Positions 4,525 through 22,166 of a stretch of 64,000 nucleotides of DNA are shown one piece after another. Made by a program: the position numbers and the translations under genes. The stretch's first letter is position 1. Every line of letters begins with the position of its first letter. The stretch is from positions 1,300,049 to 1,364,048 of the forward strand of contig NZ_DS022294.1 in the NCBI RefSeq assembly GCF_000153765.1, written 5' to 3'. The notes under the pieces were generated by a model. That model saw only the letters and a program-made list of their open reading frames with translations, did not search any database and was not told where the DNA came from. Source of the DNA: Mariprofundus ferrooxydans PV-1 (GTDB taxonomy: Bacteria; Pseudomonadota; Zetaproteobacteria; Mariprofundales; Mariprofundaceae).

Positions 4525-5073
4525 TCAGTGCCCGTCAGCGTCAGGCCCGTCATGAGATTTGTGGTCTCCGCCCTTGTGCAGGAAATAGAGTGCAACCGAC
4601 AGGGCGAGAATAGAAAACGCAAAATAGAGCATTTCCAGCGGGCCATTGTAGGTGGTATGCAGTACCGTTTTGAAAAAGCTGACTACCAGCACCATGACAA
4701 TGACCTTGGCGAGCTTGTCTTTGAGCTGATCAAGGTTACGGATTTCCAGCACATTGGATGATTCACTGGCCTGGGCGGCATCAATTTCGGAGATGAACAG
4801 CTCATACAGGCCAAAGCTGAACAGCAGCAGAACCACGGCAATCAGATAGAGGTCTACAGCGCCGATAATGGAGCCGACAATTGTTTCGTGGAATCCTGCC
4901 GGATGCTCATGATGTAGATAGCTGGAGACGGTGTCGGCAGCAACGGAGTAGATATCAACACTGCCGACAATAAACAGGATGACCGCGCCAATCATGCCGA
5001 AAATCACGGCCAGCAGAATAAACAGCCGGCTGTTCCATAGTAGTTTCTCAAAGTGTTTTTCGATGATATTCAT
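4525..5073 (-). CDS. UPF0114 (YqhA-like) inner-membrane protein
   Basis: Small membrane protein of the UPF0114/YqhA family, of unknown function. About 182 residues with hydrophobic segments near 16-40, 66-92, 128-148 and 150-168, the family stretch LYLIAVVLLLFSFGLYELFISEID being the clearest signature. The C-terminus is His/Asp-rich (GGDHKSHDGPDADGH), which could bind metal but need not. I place the start at the ATG at 5073 (GGGGA 8-9 bases upstream) and not at the TTG one codon earlier. It sits between prfA and prmC, an unusual insertion into a translation-termination cluster; nothing in the sequence ties it to that process. Confidence 0.8.
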   Translation of the reverse strand: MNIIEKHFEKLLWNSRLFILLAVIFGMIGAVILFIVGSVDIYSVAADTVSSYLHHEHPAGFHETIVGSIIGAVDLYLIAVVLLLFSFGLYELFISEIDAAQASESSNVLEIRNLDQLKDKLAKVIVMVLVVSFFKTVLHTTYNGPLEMLYFAFSILALSVALYFLHKGGDHKSHDGPDADGH

Positions 5074-14861: not shown

Positions 14862-16250
14862 ATGAGTAAACATCTGCATATTCTCGGTATCTGTGGTACG
14901 GCCATGGCCGCCATTGCCGCACTGGCCAAAGAACAGGGGTGGCATGTGACCGGCTCGGATGCGGGCGTCTATCCGCCGATGTCCGATTACCTGGCGGGGC
15001 TGGGAATTGAAATTGCCCCGTTTGATGCATCCTGCCTGCAGTCGGCGCCGGATCTGTGCGTGATCGGCAATGCGATGTCACGTGGCAATGTCGAAGTGGA
15101 GGCCATCCTCGACGGCGGATTGCCGTACTGCTCAGGCCCTGCTTTTGTCGGCGACCATATTCTGCCCGGTCGCCATGCTGTGGTGGTGGCGGGGACACAT
15201 GGCAAAACGACGACATCCAGCCTGCTGGCCTGGGTGCTAGATCGGGCGGATCTCTCTCCCGGTTTTATGATCGGCGGTATTCCGGAAGATTTCGGGACGG
15301 GGGCGCGAACGGGTGGCGGGCCGCATTTTGTACTGGAGGGCGATGAGTACGACACCGCCTTTTTCGACAAGCGCAGCAAATTTCTGCACTACCATGCACG
15401 CACATTGATTCTGAATAATCTGGAATACGATCATGCCGATATCTTTCCGGATCTGGAAGCCATCCAGGCCCAGTTTCACCATCTGATCCGCACCGTGCCT
15501 GCTGCCGGCAGCATCGTGGTGAATGGCGATGATGATAATCTTGATTATGTGCTGGCACGCGGTTGCTGGACGCCGCTGGTACGTTTTGCCCGTTACGGTG
15601 GTCGCGATGCCGAGTGGCACTGGCAGCCGTTGAGTGATGATGGCAGCCGTTTCCGTCTCTACCAGCATGGTGATGAGGTGATGGAGGTGAGCTGGGGCAT
15701 GATCGGGCTGCATCAGGTTGCCAATGCCTGTGCGGTGGCGGCAACGGCAAGCAGGCTGGGTGTTTCAAGCGCGGATATTGCCGCGGCATTTGCCTCGTTC
15801 GGGGGGATTCGCAGACGCATGACGCTGGTCGGTGAGGTGGGCGGCATCCGTATATTTGATGATTTTGCGCATCACCCGACGGCCATCAGTGGCGTGGTGG
15901 CCGCTGCACGCGCGGCGATGAAAGGACGCGGCCGGTTATGGGTAGTGGTTGAGCCGCGCTCCAATACGATGCGCTCGCGCATTCATCAGCAGGCGCTGCC
16001 CGCCTGTTTTGCTGCCGCAGACCAGGTCGTGTTTGTGCCGGCATCGGATCGGAACCTGAACGCCTCCGATGTGCTGGATGTGGCAGAGGTCTGTCGCGCT
16101 ATTGGTCCGCATGCTGTGGTGCTGGCGGATGCCGAAGCGATTATCGCGCATATTCGCAGCCACGCATCAGAGGGTGATGATGTGCTGATTCTGTCCAACG
16201 GCGGATTTGATGGTATCCATCAGCGTTTGCTGACGGCGCTGTCGGTTTGA
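14862..16250 (+). CDS. mpl: UDP-MurNAc:L-Ala-gamma-D-Glu-mDAP ligase (murein recycling)
   Basis: ATP-dependent ligase that reattaches recycled murein tripeptide to UDP-N-acetylmuramate in the cytoplasm. 462 residues from MSKHLHILGICGTAMAAIA. The N-terminal UDP-binding GICGTAM motif (10-16), the P-loop AGTHGKTTTSSLLAW (110-124), the central DDFAHHPTA motif and the Mur ligase C-terminal domain are present. The short Gly motif ICGTAM and lack of a transmembrane region separate it from MurC, whose motif is GIGGxGM. The open frame runs to a TTG at 14844, but the ATG at 14862 gives the family N-terminus; neither has a clear ribosome site. Confidence 0.93.
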   Translation: MSKHLHILGICGTAMAAIAALAKEQGWHVTGSDAGVYPPMSDYLAGLGIEIAPFDASCLQSAPDLCVIGNAMSRGNVEVEAILDGGLPYCSGPAFVGDHILPGRHAVVVAGTHGKTTTSSLLAWVLDRADLSPGFMIGGIPEDFGTGARTGGGPHFVLEGDEYDTAFFDKRSKFLHYHARTLILNNLEYDHADIFPDLEAIQAQFHHLIRTVPAAGSIVVNGDDDNLDYVLARGCWTPLVRFARYGGRDAEWHWQPLSDDGSRFRLYQHGDEVMEVSWGMIGLHQVANACAVAATASRLGVSSADIAAAFASFGGIRRRMTLVGEVGGIRIFDDFAHHPTAISGVVAAARAAMKGRGRLWVVVEPRSNTMRSRIHQQALPACFAAADQVVFVPASDRNLNASDVLDVAEVCRAIGPHAVVLADAEAIIAHIRSHASEGDDVLILSNGGFDGIHQRLLTALSV

Positions 16251-16292
16251 TGTGAAGGAAAATGCGAGCGGATATATTACCCAGCTACGCTT

Positions 16293-16321
16293 TTGTATAT
16301 CGCAGGCTTTGTTGCTAGTAT
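16293..16321 (+). promoter_or_regulatory. Possible sigma-70 promoter for fbp
   Basis: TTGTAT, 17-base spacer, TAGTAT, in the AT-rich 119-bp gap between mpl and fbp. Consensus match is modest, and the call rests mainly on position and spacing. Confidence 0.35.
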
Positions 16322-16369
16322 GACGCCGCTTTTGATTTTTCCGCACGCGGATTTGGAAGGGAGAGGGAT

Positions 16370-17317
16370 ATGCCAACAACATTGAATAATATCGCTAAGC
16401 AGGGAGCAAATGGCGCAGCCATGATGCCTGTGATCCAGGGCGTGGGGCGTGCAGCGATTGAGATTGCAGCCGTACTGCGTGGCGCTGTGTTCCGGGGCGC
16501 GTTGGGCGGCGCCGGTAGCGAAAATGTTCAGGGCGAGCAGCAGCAGATGCTGGATGTGCTCTCCGATGAGATCTTTCTGGATGAGATGCGTTCCACCGGT
16601 TTTGTCTGTGCGGTCGGCTCCGAAGAGCAGGAAGAGCTGCTGGTGATTGAAGAGTACAGCCACGCCGATTATCTGGTGCTGGTTGATCCGCTGGATGGCT
16701 CATCCAATCTGGATGTGGACGGACCTGTCGGTACGATCTTCTCCGTTGTCAAACGCAAAACCCCTAACTCCGATACCCCGCATGTATCCGATACGCTGCA
16801 GTCCGGTAAGGAAGTGATCGCGGCTGGCTACGTGCTTTACGGCCCCTCCCTGATGATGGTCTGCTCTGTCGGTGACGGCGTTCACGGCTACACCTTTAAT
16901 CCCGGATCAGCCCGTTTTGAACTGAGCCATGGCGATATCCGTATTCCGGAGACCGGCGGCTACTACTCGGTCAATGAGTCCAATAAGGACAAATGGCTGG
17001 ACGGTATGGGCGATCATCTGGATCGCATGAAAGCGGATACCGGCCTTGGCATGCGCTATGTCGGCGCCATGGTAGCTGATATGCACCGCACACTGCTCAA
17101 GGGCGGCGTATTCCTCTATCCTGCGGATGAGAAAAACACGACCGGTAAGTTGCGTCTGCTGTATGAAGCCATTCCGATGGGCTTTATTATGGAACAGGCC
17201 GGTGGCAAGGCGATGAGTAGCGGTATTGCTGTGCTCGATATCGAGCCTGAAGCACTGCATCAGCGCGTACCTGTCTATCTGGGTTCCCACACCAACGTTG
17301 ATTCGCTGCTCGGATAA
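16370..17317 (+). CDS. fbp: Fructose-1,6-bisphosphatase, class I
   Basis: Hydrolyses fructose 1,6-bisphosphate to fructose 6-phosphate in gluconeogenesis or, in autotrophs, the Calvin cycle. 315 residues. The metal-binding motif VDPLDGSSNLDVD (105-117) preceded by EE at 94-95, the substrate loop and the C-terminal GKLRLLYEAIPMGFIMEQAGG motif are those of class I enzymes. Ribosome site GGGAGAGGG lies 6-7 bases before the ATG. The uracil-DNA glycosylase gene begins 3 bp after its stop, so the two are probably one transcript. No Calvin-cycle neighbours are in view to decide between the two pathways. Confidence 0.95.
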   Translation: MPTTLNNIAKQGANGAAMMPVIQGVGRAAIEIAAVLRGAVFRGALGGAGSENVQGEQQQMLDVLSDEIFLDEMRSTGFVCAVGSEEQEELLVIEEYSHADYLVLVDPLDGSSNLDVDGPVGTIFSVVKRKTPNSDTPHVSDTLQSGKEVIAAGYVLYGPSLMMVCSVGDGVHGYTFNPGSARFELSHGDIRIPETGGYYSVNESNKDKWLDGMGDHLDRMKADTGLGMRYVGAMVADMHRTLLKGGVFLYPADEKNTTGKLRLLYEAIPMGFIMEQAGGKAMSSGIAVLDIEPEALHQRVPVYLGSHTNVDSLLG

Positions 17318-17320
17318 GCA

Positions 17321-18079
17321 TTGCCTGAGAGCAACATCTTTGTAGAAACATATCTGAGGGAAATCGGCGTGCAGACGCCGGTTTCCCTTCTTTCTTTGGC
17401 GCAGGAAACTCAGCCGCCTGTGGCCCCCGCAGCGCAGCCGAGCCCGGTTGAGTCGGAGCCTGCGGCAGCGCTTGAGTCGCAGGTATCTACGCCTGCACCT
17501 GCTGCCGATACGGTTGTATTCAAATCGCTGGATGAGTTGTCGGCAACGGCATCAACCTGTCGCCTCTGCTCGCTGGCCGATACGCGCACGCAGGTGGTGT
17601 TCGGCGTTGGTAATCCGCAGGCGGATCTGGTGTTTATCGGTGAAGCGCCGGGGCGCGATGAGGATCTGCAGGGTGAGCCGTTTGTCGGCCGGGCCGGCCA
17701 GTTGCTCGATCGCATGATGGCAGCTATCGGCCTGGATCGGGATGCCGTCTATATCATGAATACCATCAAGTGCCGGCCGCCGAATAATCGCGACCCGCGA
17801 GCCGATGAAGTGAAGGCCTGTAACCTCTGGTTTGAGCAGCAGCTTGATGCGCTGCAACCGAAAATGATCTGCCTGCTGGGCCGCGTGGCGGCACAGACCG
17901 TGCTCGGAACCGACGCAACACTCGGCGCGCTGCGCGGAGCGTGGCATGAGTATCACGGCATCCCCGTATGGGTGACCTATCACCCGGCCTACCTGCTGCG
18001 CTCCCCGCAACAGAAACAGAAAGGCTGGCAGGATCTCTGCCTGCTCGCCGATCGCTACCGTGACCTGACTCAATCCTGA
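17321..18079 (+). CDS. Family 4 uracil-DNA glycosylase (Fe-S)
   Basis: Removes uracil from DNA. 252 residues: a Pro/Ala/Glu-rich flexible N-terminus (about 28-65) followed by the family 4 catalytic domain. The four [4Fe-4S] cysteines are C80 and C83 (TCRLC), C151 and C167; the catalytic motif is GEAPGRDED (107-115), with the C-terminal [12 protein letters not shown] motif. The long N-terminal linker resembles the fused DNA-polymerase-like N-termini seen in some proteobacterial homologues. Start is TTG, 3 bp after fbp. Gene end is followed by the spacer that leads into the integron cassette region. Confidence 0.93.
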
Positions 18080-18230
18080 TCTCTGGCGCCTGCTGCTGGA
18101 CGGGCTTTTTTTCTCCCCATGCGGAAACAACCTAGCGGCCACTCGTAATGCCCGACACCAAGATGCCTCGTTGACCCGCAGCCTGAATCGGGACATTGTG
18201 ACTCCTTTCAGTGTTTTCGGTGGAGGATTT

Positions 18231-18314
18231 ATGTTCGTATCTATGAAGAAAAAACAAGGAATTATTTCCTTGTATCAACACTGTTATACGAAAAATCAGG
18301 AATCTGAAGCATGA
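18231..18314 (+). CDS. 27-codon leader ORF coupled to the first cassette gene
   Basis: ATG at 18231 preceded by GGTGGAGG at ideal spacing; the product is MFVSMKKKQGIISLYQHCYTK plus six residues. Its TGA overlaps the ATG of the DUF4145 gene (ATGA at 18311-18314), and it runs across the cassette boundary GTTATAC at 18283-18289. Short attI ORFs that enhance translation of cassette genes lacking their own ribosome site are known from class 1 integrons, and this has the same geometry. No codon evidence beyond the start, ribosome site and overlap; a chance ORF is possible. Confidence 0.45.
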   Translation: MFVSMKKKQGIISLYQHCYTKNQESEA

Positions 18315-18949
18315 GCGGAGAGCCATTTAAGCCACCAGAACAAGGGAAGTCAGCTTTCCATTGCCCAAGCTGCAAAGCCTACGCCAATCAACTCTGGGGA
18401 GGCGCATACGCGCCATTTCATGGAGGAGGCTCCATTCAGGAGGTTAATGGTGTTACTTTTGCTTGGTGTACGCATTGCCACCATGAATCTATCTGGGTGA
18501 GTAATAAGTTGATTTACCCTGCATCAACACAAGCTCCCCCACCCAATGCCGATTTACCAGAAGAAATCCTCCTCGACTACGAAGAAGCGTCACGCATTGT
18601 TGGTGATTCACCAAGAGGTGCTGCGGCCTTATTGCGATTGTGTATACAAAAATTGTGCAAGCATCTTGGAGAGTCCGGAAAAAATATAAACAATGATATC
18701 GCGGCGCTTGTCAAAAAAGGCCTGAACCCCACACTCCAAAAAAGCCTTGATGTAGTTAGAGTTATAGGGAATGAGGCAGTCCATCCGGGAACGATAGACT
18801 TAAATGATGAACCTGAAACGGCAATCGCATTGTTCAACCTAGTTAATATTATTACTCAGGCAATGATCACTCAGCCGAAGATGATCGAGTCTCTTTACGA
18901 AAGCCTCCCCGACGAAAAGCGAAACCAAATTGAGCAAAGAGATAAATAA
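18311..18949 (+). CDS. Zinc-ribbon DUF4145-domain protein, integron cassette gene
   Basis: 212 residues. The N-terminus carries a two-knuckle zinc ribbon with C18-x2-C21 (HCPSC) and C53-x2-C56 (WCTHC). From about 80 it matches the DUF4145 pattern: EEASRIVGDSPRGAAALLRLCIQKLCKHLG, then LDVVRVIGNEAVHPG and a C-terminal helical stretch. DUF4145 occurs alone and fused to restriction or other defence proteins; its activity is not known, so a defence role is only a hypothesis. It has no strong ribosome site of its own but overlaps the upstream 27-codon ORF by ATGA. AT-richer than the backbone, in keeping with mobile origin. Confidence 0.8.
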   Translation: MSGEPFKPPEQGKSAFHCPSCKAYANQLWGGAYAPFHGGGSIQEVNGVTFAWCTHCHHESIWVSNKLIYPASTQAPPPNADLPEEILLDYEEASRIVGDSPRGAAALLRLCIQKLCKHLGESGKNINNDIAALVKKGLNPTLQKSLDVVRVIGNEAVHPGTIDLNDEPETAIALFNLVNIITQAMITQPKMIESLYESLPDEKRNQIEQRDK

Positions 18950-18951
18950 TC

Positions 18952-19027
18952 GTATAACAACCCATCAAGCCTATCCAAAAAAGCGCTTCGTGCTTTTTAG
19001 ATCGGCTGATGTGAGGCGTTGTTAGGC
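18952..19027 (+). other. attC recombination site
   Basis: 76 bp. R'' GTATAAC (18952-18958); L'' CATCAAGCC (18963-18971) pairing with L' GGCTGATG (19004-19011) except for one unpaired A, the extrahelical base used for strand choice; a central stem AAAAAGC / GCTTTTT (18978-18998); R' GTTAGGC (19021-19027), which fits GTTRRRY. All four boxes are in the right order and spacing. Confidence 0.85.
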
Positions 19028-19041
19028 ATCTGGAGGAATAT

Positions 19042-19458
19042 TTGTACTTTCACACAAACACCTGCGGCCCAAGCGTTGGTGCGTTCCGTACCATCTTGGT
19101 TGCTGCCATTGCCTATGCCGTTAAGAACAACTTCAGCCAAGTTGTTCTTGCCGTCCATGCCAAAGGCAATCTAGACAACGTTATTTCCGACTCAATTGGC
19201 AAGGATGTGGTTAAGAAAATTCAGAAAGGGCCAACTTCTGTTATTCAAGGAGTAAGACTTGGCCTTACTACAGAGCGCATTGCTGTTCCATTTCTGGGCG
19301 ATGCGGTATTTGTTGCCGCACACACTTCAACCAGTTACCTCAAGAAATTAGAAGCTGACCACAAATGCAAGGCATTGTTCTATGTCCCATGGCGAGACGA
19401 AGAGTTGGCTGAATTTCTTGTGCGCCATCAGTCACATGAGATCAAGGCTGATGCCTAA
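19042..19458 (+). CDS. Unrecognised 138-residue integron cassette protein
   Basis: I do not recognise the family. The protein is soluble, mixed alpha/beta by appearance, with an N-terminal stretch GPSVGAFRTILVAAIAYAV, a hydrophobic strand QVVLAVHA and later AVFVAAH and ALFYVPW strands ending in an acidic helix. There is no in-frame ATG; the TTG at 19042 follows GGAGGA by 4 bases and begins 15 bp after the attC crossover, a typical cassette layout. The TAA stop is embedded in the R'' box GCCTAAC, also typical. A function cannot be proposed from sequence. Confidence 0.7.
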   Translation: MYFHTNTCGPSVGAFRTILVAAIAYAVKNNFSQVVLAVHAKGNLDNVISDSIGKDVVKKIQKGPTSVIQGVRLGLTTERIAVPFLGDAVFVAAHTSTSYLKKLEADHKCKALFYVPWRDEELAEFLVRHQSHEIKADA

Positions 19459-19468
19459 CAGGTCATTC
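19453..19468 (+). other. Half attC site (R'' side) after cassette 2
   Basis: GCCTAAC at 19453-19459, complementary to GTTAGGC at 19021-19027, followed by AGGTCATTC. No matching L'/R' half with GTTRRRY was found within 150 bp. AACAGGTCATTC recurs at 19590-19601, and a perfect GCGGAC-AGA-GTCCGC hairpin lies at 19533-19547 between the copies. Otherwise 19459-19631 holds nothing I can name. Confidence 0.5.
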
Positions 19469-19631
19469 ACAGTGATCGGGGTCAGCCTTTGAATGGCGGA
19501 TTCGACCCTATTGATCCATGTTGACTATAGAGGCGGACAGAGTCCGCGAGCTTCCTGTTTCGCTCCGGTTTCAGCGCTTTTAGCAGAACAACAGGTCATT
19601 CTTCATGCGCAGAGTGTGCGCGTGAAGTGGT

Positions 19632-19700
19632 TTATATCAGTGCGTGCGCGATGAAGAAGCCGGCCAGTGATGTGACTGCAATAGCGATATCGAATTCCAT
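19632..19700 (-). CDS. 22-residue single-span membrane peptide
   Basis: ATG at 19700 with GGGAGACCAAC in front encodes MEFDIAIAVTSLAGFFIAHA plus LI and a TAA stop. After a short acidic N-terminus the peptide is entirely hydrophobic, enough for one membrane helix. A hairpin at 19601-19627 follows its stop. Good ribosome site and composition support it; at this size conservation would be needed to be sure. It lies between the cassette remnant and the nuclease gene, on the nuclease strand but downstream of it. Confidence 0.4.
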   Translation of the reverse strand: MEFDIAIAVTSLAGFFIAHALI

Positions 19701-19785
19701 GTTGGTCTCCCTCGGTTTTGATAGGTGAACTCTGTCACCGGAAGGGAATGGTGGATGTGGTCTGAGTCACACCGGGCGATAATCG

Positions 19786-20508
19786 TTATGAGGCCTTTGG
19801 TGCAGGTCGCATTTTGTGCGCAACAGGGCGTCCGGGCCTGCCGGTTTTTACCAGCTTACAATCGACGAGGTGGTCGCGCAGCTTGTCGCCTTTGATTTTC
19901 TCATGGCTGTCGTTCTTGTAATAGAAGCAGCGTTCAAAGCCGTGGTTATCATACAGCATCTTCCAGTAGGCCTCCGGATAGGCAATGCCGGACTTGTGCA
20001 TGCGTTTCGGGTTGCTGCCATAAATCACGCCGTTCATGACATTTACCGAACCGAGTTTGCGGGCGATTTGACGCTCATAGCGCTCGGCCTTGATCCAGGT
20101 TTTGCGGTTGATCCTGGAGTATTGCGGAATGATGTTCGCCATCGAATAGACCGAGTGCAGCGACCTCTTTGAGTAGTCGAATGAGGCATCCGGAGCCAGG
20201 TGGCCGCGATCGGCATGAAACTCGTTTTTGGTGTAGTCCGATGAGGTGGTTCTGTATCTGGCCGGGATATCTCTGTCGGGATAGAAGCGGGGACGCTTCT
20301 TGATGTTGCCGGCTTCCATATTGTTGCCGATGAGTGTGTAGCCGACGAACAGAGCGCCTTTGGCCTTGTAGTCATAACAGATCTGGTAGAATTTCTTGTC
20401 CAGAACCTGATCGCAATTGCGATTGTTGATGAAGTCGCTGATGCCGGCGGCTGAGGCGCTGGCGATGCCGGTAAGCAGGCTGAAGAGTATAAGACTAAAG
20501 CGAACCAT
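19786..20508 (-). CDS. Secreted DNA/RNA non-specific endonuclease (DRGH family)
   Basis: 240 residues. N-terminal signal peptide (about 1-20, MVRFSLILFSLLTGIASASA with an Ala-x-Ala cleavage site), so periplasmic or exported. The catalytic motif DRGHLAPDASF at 100-110 (His102 as general base) and the downstream Asn/metal region NIIPQYSRINRKTW are those of the NucA/NUC1 nucleases, which cut single- and double-stranded DNA and RNA with Mg2+. Open frame extends 32 codons upstream, but MVRF at 20508 has GGAGAGGAAAT directly before it and starts a proper signal peptide. Probably a nutrient or extracellular-DNA nuclease; proximity to the cassettes is likely incidental. Confidence 0.9.
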   Translation of the reverse strand: MVRFSLILFSLLTGIASASAAGISDFINNRNCDQVLDKKFYQICYDYKAKGALFVGYTLIGNNMEAGNIKKRPRFYPDRDIPARYRTTSSDYTKNEFHADRGHLAPDASFDYSKRSLHSVYSMANIIPQYSRINRKTWIKAERYERQIARKLGSVNVMNGVIYGSNPKRMHKSGIAYPEAYWKMLYDNHGFERCFYYKNDSHEKIKGDKLRDHLVDCKLVKTGRPGRPVAHKMRPAPKAS

Positions 20509-20619
20509 GATTTCCTCTCCGTGGATATCTGTTGCGCAACGGGTTGTGGCTGCGGGATGGCTGTTTTGCTGCAGGCGCTGATTAAAAGAGAGCCGCGTGA
20601 GCAAGTGACTGATTCATAC

Positions 20620-20695
20620 TGGAGCCGATGTCCGGAATCGAACCGGAGACCTTCTCATTACGAGTGAGATGCTCTACCAACTGAGCTACATCGGC
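20620..20695 (-). tRNA. tRNA-Thr (anticodon CGU), CCA encoded
   Basis: 76 nt on the minus strand. Acceptor arms GCCGATG / CATCGGC pair fully, the D arm contains AGCTCAGTTGGTAGAGC, the anticodon stem CTCAC/ATGAG presents CGT, the T arm has GGTTCGATTCC, and T plus CCA ends the gene. CGU reads the threonine codon ACG. Confidence 0.95.
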
Positions 20696-20781
20696 CAGTG
20701 TTCCAGCAGGCCGCGCATCTTAGCAATATTTATGCGGATGGGAACTGTCAATTATCGGGAGAGCAAAAGCCCGCCCACCTG

Positions 20782-21504
20782 TTACTGCTCCTGTACGGCC
20801 TGGATGGCGGCCAGTAGTGCAGGGGCGGCGGTTTCCGTGCGCAGGATGCGCGGGCCGAACGCGATGCTGCGAAAGCCCCGCTCGCCCAGTGTGGCGATGT
20901 CCGCATCGCTCCAGCCGCCCTCAGGTCCCACGGCCAGCGTGATTTCGCTGCTCTCTCTGATCTCTGTGCGGATCTGCTGCCATGATGCTGCCGTGTGCGG
21001 ATGCAGTGTCAGGCCAAGGCCATGACAGGGGATGTCGGAGAGGCGGGTGTGCCAGTGAACTGTCGGCACGATGGTGCGTCCGCACTGTTCTGCCGCCTCG
21101 GTGACAATTTTGCGCCAGCGATCCAGCCGGGCGTCCAGTTTGCTGCCGTCGAGCTTCAATGATGAGCGCTCGGAGCGGGTGATGTGGAAACCGGCGGCAC
21201 CGAGCTCTGTACCTTTCTGCAAAACCGTCTCGATTTTCTCGCTGCGACAGGCGCCCTGAACAATATGAACCCGACAGGCCATCTCGCGATCAATGTTTTC
21301 AAAGGCTGTAATCCGGCATGATGCAGCCTTTCTGGAGAGGCTGTCGATGACAGCATGGTATTCACCGCCATGGCCGTTAAACAGGATTACTGTGTCACCG
21401 ACGGCATGGCGCATCACGGTGTGCAGATAATGGGCGAGGTTGGCCGGCAGATCGACGGTTGTGCCGGCCTCAAGCGGCTGGTTCAGGTGTAGGCGACAGG
21501 ACAT
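20782..21504 (-). CDS. rsmE: 16S rRNA (uracil1498-N3)-methyltransferase
   Basis: SPOUT-class methyltransferase that methylates U1498 of 16S rRNA at the decoding site. 240 residues from MSCRLHLNQPLEAG; N-terminal PUA-like domain (about 1-70, HYLHTVMRHAVGDTVILFNGHGGEY) and C-terminal knot domain with LAVGPEGGWSDADIATLGERG and SIAFGPRILRTETAAPALLA, the SAM-binding knot of RsmE. Open frame continues 16 codons upstream without support. Convergent or separate from the tRNA gene (86 bp) and divergent from ubiC. Confidence 0.94.
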   Translation of the reverse strand: MSCRLHLNQPLEAGTTVDLPANLAHYLHTVMRHAVGDTVILFNGHGGEYHAVIDSLSRKAASCRITAFENIDREMACRVHIVQGACRSEKIETVLQKGTELGAAGFHITRSERSSLKLDGSKLDARLDRWRKIVTEAAEQCGRTIVPTVHWHTRLSDIPCHGLGLTLHPHTAASWQQIRTEIRESSEITLAVGPEGGWSDADIATLGERGFRSIAFGPRILRTETAAPALLAAIQAVQEQ

Positions 21505-21584
21505 GGGGCGGATTCGGCCTGATTTCCGAAAGGCATGCAAGCTGCGATACAAGAGAGGCGGTAGCTACTTGACCGGACAGGCTG

Positions 21585-22166
21585 TTGGCTCATGATGCGC
21601 GCATGTTTTTTGGCGATATTGAATCACAACCATGGCAGTCCGTACGCGTCTGGAAACCGGCCGATGCAGGCGTTGGCCGTGATGCGGCAGCCGTGCTGAC
21701 CGTTGCCGGCTCATTAACCCGCTTTCTGGAGCGGCATTTTGCCATCCGGCTGGATGTGCGTGTGCATGACCAGTTTGTCGATTCCATGAGTGCGGAAGAG
21801 GCGCAGCTGCTGGTTTGCGCTCCCGGCGCATCGGCCTTGCGTCGTCAGGTGTCGCTGCTGCACCGTGGCTCGGTGATGTTTGATGCTGAATCGGTGTTGC
21901 CGCTGGAGGATCTGCCTGCTGATCTGATGCTTGAACTGCAGGAGGGTGCTCGTCCGTTGGGTAATCTGTTGCTGGATCGGGGACTCTCCCTGTCGCGTTC
22001 GGATCTTGCCGTGGTGAAGCTCGATATGGAGGGTGCAAATAACGGGCGCTGGGCCAGGCGTTCGGTATTGCGCTCACCTTCTGGAACACGCGCGCTGGTG
22101 GTTGAGGTGTTTCATCCGGCGCTTTGGCAGCGTATAGAAAACGCTGCCCGCCGTTACCCCCAGTGA
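21585..22166 (+). CDS. ubiC: Chorismate lyase
   Basis: Splits chorismate to 4-hydroxybenzoate and pyruvate, the first step of ubiquinone synthesis. About 190 residues. Recognised by LTRFLERHF, the RRQVSLLHRG strand (substrate Arg), the PLGNLLLDRG motif and C-terminal GRWARRSVL...VVEVFHPALW. Start uncertain: TTG at 21585 or ATG at 21603; neither has a good ribosome site. The TGA stop overlaps the GTG start of ubiA, so the two are translationally coupled and supply and use 4-hydroxybenzoate in sequence. Confidence 0.88.
   Translation: MAHDARMFFGDIESQPWQSVRVWKPADAGVGRDAAAVLTVAGSLTRFLERHFAIRLDVRVHDQFVDSMSAEEAQLLVCAPGASALRRQVSLLHRGSVMFDAESVLPLEDLPADLMLELQEGARPLGNLLLDRGLSLSRSDLAVVKLDMEGANNGRWARRSVLRSPSGTRALVVEVFHPALWQRIENAARRYPQ

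Follow-up and report, generated by a model that had tools for sequence, protein, structure and literature searches.

CALINs, which are attC clusters without an integrase, are called by IntegronFinder 2 from two or more attC sites by default, and the program searches for attI of class 1 only, attI sites outside class 1 being poorly described (PMC9024848). In the class 1 site attI1, the stop codon of the reading frame ORF-11 is the TAG of the core (PMC8876359). Antiphage integron cassettes have been documented in the chromosomal integrons of V. cholerae and V. parahaemolyticus as well as in mobile integrons (reviewed in PMC12409362). PD-T7-4 emerged from a functional selection in E. coli for defence against phages (PMC9519451), and DUF4145 has been assigned to the HEPN superfamily, whose members are mostly RNases (PMC3710099).

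The locus analysed here lies in a 64,000-nucleotide stretch of the Mariprofundus ferrooxydans PV-1 genome (the window, to which positions without a prefix refer). Its parts are of known kinds and its configuration is a variant. As in chromosomal integrons and CALINs (PMC9024848), there are an attI, an attC, single-gene cassettes in one direction and matched R boxes, and, as in CALINs, no integrase; unlike either, the locus keeps attI without intI and holds one complete attC plus a half site. It resembles known antiphage cassettes (PMC12409362) in that small defence genes are carried as cassettes, with the first position favoured for expression, but the array is tiny, such arrays are spread over several loci of the genome, no integrase is available for reshuffling and the cargo belongs to the PD-T7-4/RAZR family. 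In delta-attI-type cassettes (PMC12901181), attI material likewise travels away from its integrase; there, however, the cassettes are those of mobile integrons and end in attI in place of attC, whereas here attI heads the array at scattered chromosomal sites. We know of no earlier account of this native attI or of its ORF-11-like leader ORF, which overlaps the gene of the first cassette, nor of attI arrays scattered without an integrase through a bacterial family or of a PD-T7-4/RAZR gene that serves as an integron cassette in two lineages.

Two integron cassettes with one complete attC

The segment 18284-19459 consists of two integron cassettes, with one complete but atypical attC and one R'' half site (Table 1). 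The boxes that define them are GTTATAC at 18283-18289, matched by GTATAAC at 18952-18958, and GTTAGGC at 19021-19027, matched by GCCTAAC at 19453-19459. On the cassettes, the full and half attC sites, the matched R boxes and the housekeeping character of the surroundings, the preliminary description of this DNA proved correct. Its argument from the improbability of matched heptamers needs to be narrowed, since the window holds 36 pairs of a GTTR heptamer and its complement, 250-1500 bp apart, per strand, and we rejected such pairs alone as proof of cassettes; the pair considered here is significant nonetheless because one heptamer lies exactly at the attI crossover and its partner within a few bases of the ORF stop. 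The pattern recurs in 7 of the 12 attI copies that could be checked, where the complement of the first heptamer lies at the first ORF's end.

Table 1. Features of the array, in positions of the window
Feature	Position	Strand	Evidence or details
attI and intI-side intergenic DNA	about 18168-18283	+	recurrence in the order, linkage to intI, homology
Candidate promoter TTGACC-N17-CATTGT (Pc or other intI-attI promoter)	18171-18199	+	weak
Leader ORF MFVSMKKKQGIISLYQHCYTKNQESEA, then stop; 27 codons	18231-18314	+	ATG at 18231, GGAGG 18222-18226
Crossover	between G18283 and T18284		attI/cassette 1 border
Cassette 1 (TTATAC... to G of R' box)	18284-19021	+	attI crossover, attC, boxes GTTATAC/GTATAAC
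PD-T7-4/RAZR family gene, 212 aa	18311-18949	+	PADLOC, Pfam, PDB, Foldseek
attC	18952-19027	+	R'' 18952-18958, L'' about 18963-18971, L' about 19004-19011, R' 19021-19027
Cassette 2, ending in R'' half site 19453-19459, remainder of attC absent	19022-19459	+	GTTAGGC/GCCTAAC match
Cassette 2 gene, 138 aa, TTG start	19042-19458	+	GGAGG 19032-19036; R'' overlaps stop codon
Array end/chromosome junction	19458-19600	.	GGGGTC...GACCC palindrome; AACAGGTCATTC repeated on both sides

The complete attC had been proposed earlier with R'', L'', L' and R' boxes, an extrahelical A and a central stem, and each of these elements was recovered: TAACAAC pairs with GTTGTTA on the outside and CATCA(A)GCC with GGCTGATG on the inside, leaving the A extrahelical, and a central stem closes the hairpin. 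The bottom strand folds with -16.2 kcal/mol (z = -4.2), a value equalled by none of 200 shuffles, and when both strands of the whole window were scanned for hairpins with R/L boxes, this site ranked first. We trained a covariance model on attCs from related genomes (20 sites in alignment A1, with compensated changes at nine pairs). Its best match in 16000-22000 lies at exactly 18952-19027, but the score is weak (11.4 bits; E = 0.24 with filters off in a 6-kb search). The likely reason is the long L'-R' spacer (9 nt, TGAGGCGTT), which makes this attC atypical; canonical spacing would place the R' box at GTTGTTA. In Rfam, only tmRNA and tRNA matched and no attC-type family was found.

A recurrent attI site at the head of the array

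Searches with 18180-18300 and with a 66-bp consensus retrieved the attI 23 times from 15 of 78 genomes of the order, representing seven genera and with up to three copies per genome, including a second copy in the same genome at C3:351436-351500. In nearly all copies, homology ends at G^TT and the DNA beyond differs. Two copies (G082:C33 and G143:C137) have an intact divergent intI directly behind them and a third (G021:C35) adjoins a pseudo-intI that contains a stop and lacks an internal part; 16 of the 19 copies inspected are without intI. This recurrence and the linkage to intI show that the window contains attI, cassette 1 and cassette 2, with the integrase absent; the attI at the head of the array had been overlooked in the preliminary description. 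More generally, the point at which homology stops locates attI, which offers a simple way of finding such sites.

Several minor features accompany the attI copies. A palindrome, ACAAGGAATTATTTCCTTGT, is located at 18254-18273, 10 bp before the crossover, and is kept in most copies, that of G205 having a compensated form (ACAGGG..CCCTGT); it is possibly an integrase or regulator site. The copies at orphan loci tend to sit downstream of a gene in the same direction, and at several of these loci (G027:C65, G059:C37 and G108:C54) the attI segment is immediately preceded at its 5' edge by a terminator-like hairpin.

The leader ORF starts within attI and runs through the crossover into cassette 1, where its TGA stop and the ATG start of the first cassette gene share bases (ATGA, 18311-18314), an arrangement suggesting that leader and gene are translationally coupled. 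Several other attI copies, and the intI-linked attIs of G012 and G010, also have a leader ORF in this phase; that of G027:C65 stops at the TAG of its GTTAGAC core, as ORF-11 does. With ORF-11 and ORF-18 of class 1 attI1 (PMC8876359) the leader ORF shares a GGAG-type Shine-Dalgarno sequence, its short length and location in attI, the same-phase crossing and a stop supplied by the first cassette; it differs in that the sequence is unrelated, the attI is chromosomal and the stop overlaps the start of the cassette gene. The spacing of the candidate promoter is, by eye, the same in G021, G012 and G010, but this candidate is weak because its -10 element is poor and a consensus scan found no promoter at 18171-18199.

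Predicted defence cargo of the cassettes

The first cassette gene had been described as encoding a zinc-ribbon DUF4145 protein, which the Pfam match (DUF4145, 5.9e-15) and the zinc-ribbon cysteine pairs CPSC and CTHC bear out. It had also been put forward, together with its neighbour, as undescribed cargo, a label that fits the uncharacterised second gene but not the first, because the latter's product matches PADLOC PD-T7-4 over residues 6-212 of 212 (4.3e-87) and the RAZR chain of PDB 9y9c. This entry, the RAZR:Gp77 complex, is nearest both by sequence (6.1e-55) and by fold (Foldseek 1.1e-9, 43% identity to the chain in the fold alignment, with a predicted model of pLDDT 79). Across 15 homologues, C53 and C56 are invariant, as are R150, N154 and H158, with R150 and H158 forming R-x7-H and not the canonical HEPN R-x4-6-H. 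Cassette 1 is thus predicted to encode an antiphage protein of the PD-T7-4/RAZR type, combining a zinc ribbon with a HEPN-like DUF4145 domain. The full-length family match and this domain pair are those of PD-T7-4 (PMC9519451) and RAZR (PDB 9y9c); what sets it apart from known members is that it is carried as an integron cassette and that its antiphage role is predicted from sequence.

A homologue with 68% identity in a Sedimenticola MAG (L085) is cassette-borne too; the boxes around it are the same (GTTATAC/GTATAAC) and its attC is regular. This attC is clear by eye and in the box scan, and the covariance model with default filters gave no attC beside PD-T7-4 homologues, so the model leans to the clades on which it was trained. 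A Y1-type transposase gene adjoins the Sedimenticola cassette.

The cassette 2 protein has no match in Pfam, NCBIfam or PADLOC, and its AlphaFold prediction is poor (pLDDT 45). Distant homologues of 135-145 aa exist, one of them in a cassette array (L082); scans of genome contigs, viral contigs and phages found no relatives. Neither cassette gene was found in 40 related genomes, except for a second PD-T7-4 copy in the same genome, and the alternative raised earlier, that relatives might hold both genes in the same order without the boxes, thus found no example among these 40.

A search of the genome for more attC sites, another suggestion of the preliminary description, was productive: the covariance model returned eight further candidates, with the C4:879003-881439 cluster and the second attI array (C3:351500) among them. 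Genes next to these sites include those for a second PD-T7-4, Shedu SduA (2e-172), Uzume UzuA (1.1e-50), Abi-alpha/PDC-S47 and TIR-Mrr proteins. A PADLOC match over most of the length at E < 1e-20 was obtained for 5 of about 12 cassette genes versus 0 of 20 other genes of the window, one of which has a partial methylase match, in a comparison that relies on a hand-made list of cassette genes and a small sample. By these matches, the orphan cassettes of the genome are rich in predicted defence genes.

These loci differ in layout. The minus-strand cluster at about 879-882 kb of C4 (L076:4004-7203), in which no attI was detected, contains three attCs recognized by the model and one weaker site, with genes for a PD-T7-4-like protein, a 175-aa membrane protein, Uzume UzuA (GIY-YIG) and Abi-alpha/PDC-S47. 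The second attI array, at about 351.4-353.6 kb of C3 (L018:4424-6640), comprises attI and two cassettes: one encodes a 271-aa ORFan and has an attC of 57 bp, the other carries Shedu SduA and its attC breaks off after R''. At about 1318 kb of C3 (L077:4812-6272), TIR-Mrr and Mrr-like genes are followed by a single attC.

Probable loss of the integrase and alternative origins

The earlier remark that no integrase is nearby holds for the entire genome, in which no intI was found, the best TIGR02249 matches being Xer-like (74 bits versus a cut-off of 265). Nor did tblastn find an intI remnant near the window locus. IntI is present in several congeners. We consider it probable (about 85%) that the locus is what remains of a chromosomal integron, namely attI and two captured cassettes, and that intI was lost from the locus and from the genome.

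The preliminary description saw the locus as CALIN-type, that is, as cassettes without attI, in line with the lack of intI in the genome and with the existence, in the same genome, of the C4:879003-881439 attC cluster without a detected attI. This reading we regard as practically untenable, because a genuine attI heads the window array and because the single complete attC falls short of the IntegronFinder 2 default of two (PMC9024848). As that program makes no attI search outside class 1, arrays of this kind would be missed or filed as single-attC CALINs. It is hardly more credible that there are no integron cassettes at all and that chance boxes and a chance hairpin lie between two unrelated acquired genes: heptamer pairs are common and the covariance model scores the attC weakly, but the places where the boxes lie, the z-score of the fold, the divergence of the attI family at the crossover and the homologous cassettes elsewhere all speak against coincidence, which the linkage of attI to intI refutes in practice.

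A more serious competitor, improbable though we judge it, is that attI and its cassettes arrived as one unit, an attI-headed segment excised from an integron at another place and put into a chromosomal site by an integrase acting in trans, intI never having been at the locus. The frequency of orphan attI copies within single genomes and among the copies inspected fits such movement, as does the point at which most of them lose homology to the intI-linked copies, about -91: the interval -91 to -62 is matched by 10 of 16 copies and -122 to -92 by only 2 of 16. The window copy, however, extends past this point, with gapped homology to the intI-side DNA of G082 reaching about -115, so that loss of intI in place is favoured; some copies, moreover, share a locus by descent (G205 and G227), and we know of no mechanism for cutting at -91.

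For the family as a whole, the shared 5' edge at about -91 among most orphan copies hints at a defined moving unit. That attI has been dispersed as such a unit, with a fixed edge near -91 and one or two, often defence-type, cassettes, to many chromosomal sites and without an integrase, is a tentative proposal that we would not favour at present. If true, it would mean that integrons seed fixed, leader-ORF-coupled immunity genes across the genome, beyond stockpiling them in one array.

Under the preferred reading, the remnant of a chromosomal integron, the cassettes would have been inserted at attI by the IntI of this family before intI was lost. The first gene would be expressed from attI-borne or upstream transcription, with the leader ORF delivering ribosomes to it through the overlap of its stop with the gene start. 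RAZR is a zinc-ribbon/HEPN-like RNase that is triggered by a phage protein, and the cassette 1 protein may act in the same way. With IntI absent and the second attC cut after R'', shuffling of the array by the host itself would no longer be possible, which would leave the immunity gene fixed in first position. The capture system thus seems to have left behind a fixed and possibly still expressed immunity gene. Orphan arrays headed by an attI with an ORF-11-like leader can, by these predictions, carry antiphage genes, and whether an integron that has lost its integrase can fix defence genes at new sites in the chromosome can now be tested.

Chromosomal surroundings of the array

Beyond the array, native homology with a relative (G009) restarts at about 19579. 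The relatives inspected have other DNA between the uracil-DNA glycosylase gene and the tRNA, and an exact empty site was not found among them. Each of the genome's two attI arrays is followed, just past its end, by palindromic repeats of the GGGGTCAG type (window 19477-19510; L054:3620-3690 and 4590-4640). A tiny conserved ORF, MEFDIAIAVTSLAGFFIAHALI, probably encoding a small membrane peptide, is located on the minus strand at about 19632-19700 of the window and recurs in this intergenic region, sometimes in several copies, in every relative inspected.
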